A stretch of DNA of 64,000 nt, from the NCBI GenBank assembly GCA_022829145.1, contig CM040742.1, positions 48,908,182 through 48,972,181 of the forward strand. The letters run 5' to 3'. The translations under genes and the position numbers were made by a program. The notes under the pieces were generated by a model. That model saw nothing but the letters and a program-made list of their open reading frames with translations, was not told the origin of the DNA and did no database searches. Each line of letters begins with the position of its first letter. Positions within the stretch are counted from its first letter, which is position 1. This stretch comes from Albula goreensis (Eukaryota > Chordata > Actinopteri > Albuliformes > Albulidae). This document shows positions 46,401 through 49,400 of this stretch, piece after piece.

Positions 46401-49400
46401 TCACTCTCACAGTGCGGCGCCATGACGCTCACACCCTCACTCTCACAGTGCGGCGCCATGACGCTCACACCCTCACTCTCACAGTGCGGCTCAGACGCCA
46501 CGCCATGACGCTCACACCCTCACTCTCACAGTGCAGCTCAGACGCCACGCCATGACGCTCACACCCTCACTCTCACAGTGCAGCGCCAATGACGCTCACA
46601 CCCTCACTCTCACAGTGCAGCGCCATGACGCTCACACCCTCACTCTCACAGTGCGGCTCAGACGTCTCGCCATGACGCTCACACCCTCACTCTCACAGTA
46701 CAGCTCAGACGCCACGCCATGACGCTCACACCCTCACTCTCACAGTGCAGCGCCATGACGCTCACACCCTCACACTCACAGTGCAGCTACACACATTTCC
46801 ACTATGGAGCCGTAGACACAGACATGGATACACACACACACACACACACACACAGACACACAGACAGACAGGGTGAAAACAGGAGTGAAATGAGAAGCAT
46901 AATGATGGACTCTGTCCCCTCAGTCAAGCAGGACTCTAACCACACCATCGGGGTGGAGTTTGGGTCCCGTGTCGTCAACGTCGGGGGGAAGACGGTCAAA
47001 CTGCAGATCTGGGACACAGCTGGGCAGGAGCGATTCAGGTAAGTCAATTCATGTCTGATAGGCCGATAGAACTGAAAAACCTCCTCGCATTGGCTGAGAA
47101 AGGCAGAGTGCATACTTTACAGAGAAGCCTAAAGGCCATAGGCCAGTCTGAGGATGGATTAGCCAGTTTAGACCAGGGTCCGAAACGCTGTGCCACGGAG
47201 GGACATTCTCCACACTCTGCTCATGATTCAGTAATTAAGTCCATAATTTATTACATGAAAAAAGGAAAAATGATTTTTTCTGAATTATTATCTAAATGAT
47301 TGTGATTGCTGCTTATATCCTGAGCTTTAACTTGCATGTTGAAATGTATATTCCGTGCACATGGCTGTATAAGTAGTGAAGGTGGCTGTGGCAGCTGTGA
47401 TTGGCTGGGGTGAGTGGTCATGCATGTGTAACTACAGAGGGGGGCTCCATAGCCCTGTCCTGGGGACCACATTGCATATGCCGAGTTTTACTCCAACCAC
47501 AACTGCAGTTGCTTAAGTAAAATAGAGTGTTAATGATTTTTAATTACACAGTGTCTCCTGACTGATGACCCGCCCTCCTAATGCCTCATTAAATCAGAGA
47601 CGGATCAGCCCGTTATGGATCATTAATGTTCCTGTCCTTTTCAGCTCTGTGAATCAGTCAGATCAGTTCCGGCTGATTTGTTCATTTTCCATAATGAGCT
47701 GTAGCAAATTATTCCTTTTGAAAGAGGGTGCATGTGTGATTGATTAATTGATTGACTTGCAGCTGAAATCAGTGAAGTTCTATAATTTGTGTGTTCCCAC
47801 AAGGACAGTGAAACTGGTGAGCCAAACGAGCTCTGAGCTAATGTGTAAAGCACAGAATTATGGAACTTGGTTTTAACTCATTTTAAACTATAATCAGGAG
47901 ATTTGATTGGCAGGGAATTGAAATGAAACATAGTGCACACAGGGGTACCCCAGGGCACAGTTTGGCAACCCTGCAACCTGTGGAATGTTGGTTTTAAGGG
48001 CGGGGCCTTATGGGCGGGGCCTTATGGACTGTCCTCCTGGCCCCCTCCAGGTCCGTGACTCGGAGTTACTATCGCGGTGCAGCAGGAGCCCTGCTGGTCT
48101 ATGACATCACAAGGTAAGAGTGCGCACACTCCCCTCCCCCATTATGACATCACTAGGTAAGAGTGCGCACACTTCCCTCTCCCACTATGACATCACAAGG
48201 TAAGGGTGCGCACACTCCCCTCCCCCATTATGACATCACAAGGTAAGAGTGCGCACACTTCCCTCTCCCACTATGACATCACAAGGTAGGGGTGCGCACA
48301 CTCCCCTCCCCCATTATGACATCACTAGGTAAGAGTGCGCACACTTCCCTCTCCCACTATGACATCACAATGTAAGAGTGTGCACACTCCCCTCCCCATT
48401 GTGACATCACAAGGTAAGAGTGCGCACACTCCCCTCCCCCATTATGACATCACTAGGTAAGAGTGCGCACACTTCCCTCTCCCACTATGACATCACAAGG
48501 TAAGGGTGCGCACACTCCCCTCCCCCACTATGACATCACTAGGTAAGAGTGCACACACTCACCTCTCCCACTATGACATCACAAGGTAAGAGTGCACACA
48601 CTCCCCTCCCCCACTGTGACATCACAAGGTAAGAGTGCACACACTCCCCTCCCCCACTGTGACATCACAAGGTAAGAGTGCACACACTCCCCTCACCCAC
48701 TACCCAGCCATTCTCAGAGAGACCATAATGAATAAGGAGTGAGAGAATCCACGTGTCTGTCCCTGCAGCCGAGAGACCTACAACGCCTTGACCAACTGGC
48801 TGACGGATGCACGGACGCTGGCTAGCCCTAACATCGTCATCATCCTATGCGGGAACAAGAAGGACCTGGACGCCGACCGAGAGGTCACCTTCCTAGAGGC
48901 GTCCCGCTTCGCCCAGGAGAACGGTACCTCACCCCCTCTGACATACACACAGATCAAAACACCCTCTGACATACGCACAGATCGAAACACCCTCTGACAT
49001 AAGCACAGATCGAAACACCCTCAGACATACGCACAGATTGAAACACCCTCAGACATACGCACAGATTGAAACACCCTCAGACATACGCACAGATCGAAAC
49101 ACCCTCAGACATACGCACAGATTGAAACACCCTCTGACATATGCACAGATTGAAACACCCTCAGACATAAGCACATTAGAAACACCCTCAGACATACGCA
49201 CAGATCGAAACACCCTCAGACATACGCACAGATTGAAACACCCTCTGACATATGCACAGATTGAAACACCCTCAGACATAAGCACATTAGAAACACCCTC
49301 AGACATACGCACAGATCGAAACACCCTCAGACATATGCACAGATTGAAACACCCTCAGACATACGCACAGATTGAAACACCCTCAGACATACGCACAGAT

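Follow-up and report, generated by a model that had tools for sequence, protein, structure and literature searches.

Tandem repeats that lie across exon-intron boundaries are known from several human genes. In CBS, the 31-bp variable number tandem repeat c.1444_1467+7(16_21) unites 24 nt of exon with 7 nt of intron and is present in 16-21 copies (PMC2630376, PMC5188458, PMC1395315), and 844ins68 of the same gene is a duplication of the intron 7/exon 8 junction (PMC2630376). Human segmental duplications contain variable tandem repeats, with units of about 30 bp, at exon-intron boundaries, which are able to change splicing (PMC2812944), while UBC and VCX3A carry arrays of dual-specific splice sites, both roles being shown by RNA (PMC10809524). 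Moreover, intron gain through tandem duplication of an AG/GT proto-splice site has been described (PMC2891723), and abundant GC-rich minisatellites have been found at the centromeres of the fish Nothobranchius (PMC2688266). No report of donor-seeded arrays in fish was found in a literature search that gave a partial view of the matching papers.

The array in intron 4 of rab4b of Albula goreensis is an exon-intron-boundary minisatellite, of the kind already known from human genes. It lies in a stretch of 64,000 nucleotides, analysed as a whole and referred to as the window, which occupies C2:48.91-48.97 of a contig of 50.19 Mb.

The array at the exon 4 junction and its surroundings

The exons of rab4b were read from the sequence, the first exon not being sought, and the joined protein of 208 aa matches human RAB4B without a gap (PDB 2o52, E 3.8e-111), also at the exon 4 junction; a gapless match to RAB4A was obtained as well. 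Because of this agreement, the end of exon 4 is placed at 48113 and the start of the array 15 nt inside the exon. The gene comprises the following features:

45805-45885, forward strand, rab4b exon 2 (gene model)
46924-47038, forward strand, rab4b exon 3 (gene model)
48051-48113, forward strand, rab4b exon 4, ending ...TAT GAC ATC ACA AG (RAB4B match, translation)
48099-48702, forward strand, 43-bp array of 14 registered copies (TRF, register and copy alignment)
48114-48119, forward strand, genuine exon 4 donor GTAAGA, copy 1 (sequence; frame kept only with this donor)
48114-48768, forward strand, rab4b intron 4, 655 nt, of which 589 nt are array (gene model)
48769-48923, forward strand, rab4b exon 5 (RAB4B match, gene model)
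50834-50929, forward strand, rab4b exon 6 (gene model)
51062-51177, forward strand, last exon of rab4b, with stop (gene model)

Upstream and on the same strand, a Rho-type GTPase gene was recognized at window positions 12382-14821 (Pfam Ras, two exons seen); Pfam queries with 5118-5282 and 7718-7939 gave no match.

Run on the window, TRF reports the array at 48099-48702 with a period of 43, 14.1 copies and 90% matches. Thirteen of the registered copies measure 43 bp and copy 7 measures 42 bp, the copy number being that of the assembly. The unit, of minisatellite length, spans the exon end and the intron start: it begins with the last 14-15 nt of exon 4 (15 in the register), followed by GTAAGA as the donor and by a further 22 nt of intron. 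The end of exon 4 is itself copy 1, and its sequence equals the consensus of the 14. Without the extra copies, which amount to about 560 nt, intron 4 would measure about 94 nt. Variant junctions are found in copies 2, 6, 9 and 11 (TAG/GTAAG), in copy 7 (AAT/GTAAG) and in copy 5 (GTAGGG). When an 86-base piece of the array was searched against the 932-Mb assembly, very common words being skipped, eight matches appeared among the best-scoring candidates, all at the rab4b locus. An earlier note had described a 43-bp unit, containing the exon 4 end plus gtaag and multiplied about 14 times, with an immediate stop (ACA AGG TAA) on reading past the exon, and these points are all borne out. A chance similarity between the array and the exon end was considered and rejected, the first copy being exon and consensus at once.

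A second rab4b is present in the assembly at C11:1865506-1869332, with 77-96% identity over five listed exon matches. Its exon 4 ends in TATGACATCACAAG/GTAAGAG, 21 nt (14 of exon and 7 of intron) that are identical to the window gene and beyond which the two diverge. Five pieces of this gene (2,755 bases), which run without omission from the last part of exon 3 to the end of intron 4 and also take in the exon 2 donor, all of intron 5 and the stop codon, contain no array of at least three copies with a unit of at least 10 bp. Since the same exon end and donor stand there in single copy, both are older than the array, which is confined to the window gene, and this supports a course of copying from the exon into the intron. 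For two other arrays of the window gene, that of intron 2 (score 36 against a shuffle maximum of 30) and that of the stop and 3' UTR (36 against 31), the C11 gene has a weakly similar single-copy segment; for intron 5 it has none (14 against 30). From position 23 of its intron 4 (L129 616-624), the C11 gene also holds ATGACATCA, an echo of the exon end whose alignment score of 18 is within the shuffle range (maximum 23). The piece of rab4a that was consulted (L125) reaches only as far as an acceptor and is uninformative. Intron gain by tandem duplication was also considered and is ruled out: in the C11 gene, too, this exon end is followed by an intron, and intron 4 has been enlarged instead.

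Further arrays were located within rab4b by TRF and from the sequence:

45411-45780, forward strand, 36-bp array in intron 1, ending 24 nt before exon 2
45900-46788, forward strand, 36-bp and longer-period array in intron 2, starting at intron position +15
48934-49662, forward strand, 28-bp array in intron 5, starting at intron position +11
50236-50821, forward strand, 24/48-bp array in intron 5, ending 12 nt before exon 6
51165-51701, forward strand, 45-bp array from the last codons (TGC AGC TGC TAG, the stop ending at 51177) into the 3' UTR

Relative to the donors, the arrays of rab4b thus start at +15 (exon 2), -15 (exon 4) and +11 (exon 5), and a TG-rich repeat begins at +14 of the exon 6 donor. 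The array preceding exon 3 stops 135 nt short of it, and the vicinity of the exon 3 donor holds no array with at least three copies and a unit of at least 10 bp. As several other arrays begin just within introns or stop just short of acceptors, the exon overlap appears as one end of a wider pattern. The 45-bp array multiplies the CxC prenylation end and the stop into the 3' UTR, and AAAGGTCAGT or ACAGGTCA also occurs within most of its units. The exon 4 array had been regarded in the earlier note as a second, independent case of seeding at a junction; further cases do exist, both in rab4b, where the array at 51165 has its beginning in the final codons, and at coding-exon ends elsewhere. The accompanying suggestion, that duplication began in or at the exon edge and spread into the intron, is supported by the start of the array inside the exon and by the single-copy exon end and donor on C11, the C11 gene serving in place of related fish.

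Array edges, splice sites and chromosome ends

The window is rich in tandem repeats: those with at least three copies, microsatellites included, make up 31.7% of it. From the Ras, kinase and myosin listings, 48 exon pieces were sampled, being chosen by position and not by their arrays. The Ras listing supplied 20 of them, taken roughly in its order but with some rows passed over; a first set of 20 and a second of 8 were chosen near contig ends, non-exhaustively. In the pieces within 3 Mb of a contig end (n=32), 2,994 of 28,144 bases belong to arrays with units of at least 10 bp and at least three copies, which occur in 11 of these pieces; in the others (n=16), the figure is 64 of 15,068 bases, all in a single piece. 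Six of the 32 end-near pieces and none of the 16 others have an array no more than 25 nt from a splice site, a difference that is not significant (Fisher p 0.07). Furthermore, of the 16 listed non-satellite arrays of C1 with three AGGTAAG, 12 fall within the final 3.3 Mb of the 72.1 Mb (binomial p of about 1e-13, the boundary being set post hoc).

In the sampled pieces, the distance from donor to array is 6 intron nt (L096), 7 (L097) and 11 (L107), and that from acceptor to array 18 (L083), 11 (L087), 8 (L097, a pyrimidine-rich tract) and 17 (L121); the farther edges lie at 30 (L110, where a two-copy repeat begins nearer), 35 (L099, acceptor uncertain) and 43 nt (L109). Seven of these ten edges are within 25 nt of a splice site, against 1.9 expected by uniform placement over 130 nt (p 0.0007, for a small sample and a post hoc threshold). 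L081 (186 nt) and L108 (138 nt), both beyond 130 nt, L103 and rab4b itself were excluded from the ten. The 23/47-bp array of L103, which belongs to a Ras-family gene, has its end not at a splice site but at the start codon or right beside it. L096 (C2:48.67 Mb) and L110 (C11:1.29 Mb) are related kinase genes that share a conserved donor, GTGAGTAC; different repeats start 6-8 nt past it in the two genes, as though a single junction had been seeded independently.

Multiplied donors were also sought in arrays directly. The donor heptamer gave 1,777 overlapping matches versus 1,177 for the backward-read pattern, and a control motif of the same letters 1,262 versus 907 for its reverse; no significance is claimed for these counts because simple satellites are mixed in. 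By eye, C1 holds 16 non-satellite donor arrays (one TAAGC-type satellite omitted) versus 10 control-motif arrays among the matches listed. Eleven of the 16 were examined, the presence of a coding exon at the left edge being judged by eye: an apparent coding exon continues into the first copy in four, and none is evident in the other seven. Among the junction arrays, L073 is SHANK3-like (PDB match, E 9.9e-27), with about 10 exon nt within a 38-bp unit, and L051 has a zinc-finger exon of C2H2 type, recognized by Pfam, of which about 5 nt lie in the array, another zinc-finger-like exon following by eye. The exons of L070 and L071 are presumed, from their appearance, to be KDM5-like and semaphorin-like; Pfam gave no support for either name, nor did PDB for L071. 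The L070 exon shows a one-base frame change at a C run, either an assembly error or real.

The pile-up of near-end array edges within 25 nt of splice sites, seen in a small sample, is possibly new. On a tentative and rather doubtful view, minisatellites of this fish might arise preferentially at the splice junctions of genes close to chromosome ends, with duplications starting within some 25 nt of donors and acceptors, and those reaching a few bases into the exon might multiply complete donors many times while the mRNA stays unchanged.

Splice-site strength of the copies and origin of the array

The donors were scored with a textbook weight matrix, against 28 real donors hand-picked from the sampled exons and rab4b (copy 1 included). 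In 13 of the 14 copies the score equals or exceeds the median of this reference, so that exclusive use of the first donor is not self-evident; the exception is copy 7, which has lost the G at -1. That most copies keep a good donor, as the earlier note had stated, is confirmed in this way; the variants it called degraded are all present, but the TAG copies hardly deserve the name, each scoring at or above 21 of the 28 real donors. Use of a later copy would give ...LVYDITR-stop after 87 residues (as translated for copies 2, 3, 4, 7 and 14), and the same is expected of the remaining copies because every extension opens with the stop. The frame and the agreement with RAB4B are preserved with copy 1 alone, which points to it as the functional junction. 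Diversity, calculated over the 13 full-length copies, amounts to 0.091 for the exon part, 0.090 for GTAAGA and 0.076 for the remainder of the unit. The copied donors thus carry no sign of selection, and a conserved splicing function is not supported; the expression "donor multiplied" holds for the origin of the array and not for a function, there being no extra constraint at donor positions. As to acceptors, AG/GT is retained in 13 copies, copy 7 having AT/GT and no AG. By a rough score of our own, copy 1 reaches 0 of 34 sampled acceptors, while the remaining copies with AAG reach 2 and the four with TAG reach 7.

The number of strong copies, together with the stop met by each extension, would suit alternative donors that compete for U1 and tune Rab4b through NMD-cleared poison extensions, or that act as a U1 sink; in human CBS, more repeats go with lower enzyme activity (PMC5188458). 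Such a function is improbable, given that variation at donor positions is no lower than elsewhere in the unit, that the second rab4b on C11 has no array and that a unit length of 43 nt keeps no frame. Recursive or dual-specific splicing, with AG/GTAAG as both acceptor and donor, would leave the junction unchanged and could correct the use of a downstream donor. It agrees with the AG/GT kept almost throughout the array and with the tandem dual-site arrays of human UBC and VCX3A (PMC10809524), but we consider it very improbable on account of the low acceptor scores, however rough. Usual vertebrate introns are longer than one 43-nt unit, which also counts against recursive splicing. An assembly artefact or a chance likeness is scarcely credible: the copy number of an array can be mis-assembled, but the copies differ at several sites and by block, the first of them is the exon itself, and the assembly consists of 208 contigs for 932 Mb.

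Most likely, the array stems from a tandem duplication straddling the junction, has grown in minisatellite-rich subtelomeric DNA and is tolerated since the true donor stays first. A single duplication whose left break fell within exon 4, 15 nt from its end, would have given two copies, and slippage or unequal exchange, including that of multi-unit blocks, would have raised them to 14, as in many arrays of the subtelomeric region. Copies 2-3 and copies 9-10 are identical as pairs, and the mean identity between copies has peaks at offsets 2 and 7; such exact recurrence of blocks and such peaks indicate that blocks of units were copied, as expected of either process. The left edge (48099) bears the trinucleotide CTA, which recurs right after the last full unit (48700): this pair could be a 3-bp microhomology that seeded the duplication, or else the start of a fifteenth copy. 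The copied order keeps the genuine exon and donor first and intact, for which reason the array would be tolerated: splicing from donor 1, assumed here, would yield a normal mRNA and make the array splice-silent. The downstream look-alikes would be by-products, whose occasional use may give a truncated Rab4b message, probably cleared by NMD.

On an intron of about 94 nt, a random 43-bp duplication would straddle an intron end fairly often. In the small sample, array edges are closer to splice sites than expected from uniform placement, and plain random duplication is insufficient unless introns were very short. Duplications in these regions may begin preferentially at exon-intron junctions, for example through transcription- or splicing-coupled breaks, as the observed surplus of close edges and, in rab4b, the array starts around three donors and ends before two acceptors would suggest. 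This possibility is a rather doubtful one: the edge sample is small and its threshold post hoc, one edge is a pyrimidine-rich tract and one acceptor uncertain, the contrast between end-near and other pieces falls short of significance, and part of the effect is attributable to short original introns. It concerns the sites at which duplications start and is compatible with the straddling duplication preferred here.

Significance and comparison with described systems

The rab4b array is a clean case: a conserved gene contains a strong 5' splice site in 14 tandem copies, while its sister gene, with one copy, provides the control. It constitutes a natural test of spliceosome choice among near-identical donors 43 nt apart. 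The part worth following is the chromosome-end pattern. If the pile-up of edges held genome-wide, the birth of minisatellites would be linked to exon-intron junctions, and if junctions were indeed birthplaces, a single genome would offer a large natural series of multiplied splice sites.

Compared with the described systems, the array is like the human CBS repeat in that its unit joins an exon end to an intron start and multiplies a donor beside its own exon. The CBS unit is 31 bp long, whereas that of rab4b has 43 bp (15 exon and 28 intron nt), in 14 copies and in a fish gene. CBS 844ins68 is likewise a junction duplication with a normal message (for rab4b, presumably so), but adds one copy on the acceptor side and not a 14-copy array at a donor. 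With the repeats of human segmental duplications the array shares its nature of a minisatellite at an exon-intron boundary; those cases are primate-specific paralogs with RNA-supported intron changes, whereas rab4b is an ordinary conserved gene whose array is known from DNA. The tandem units with AG/GT recall the arrays of UBC and VCX3A, from which rab4b differs in the poor acceptor scores of its copies and, again, in the kind of evidence. Finally, as in the described route to intron gain, a segment with AG/GT has been tandemly duplicated, but no new intron has resulted in rab4b, the C11 gene sharing the intron that the array has enlarged.
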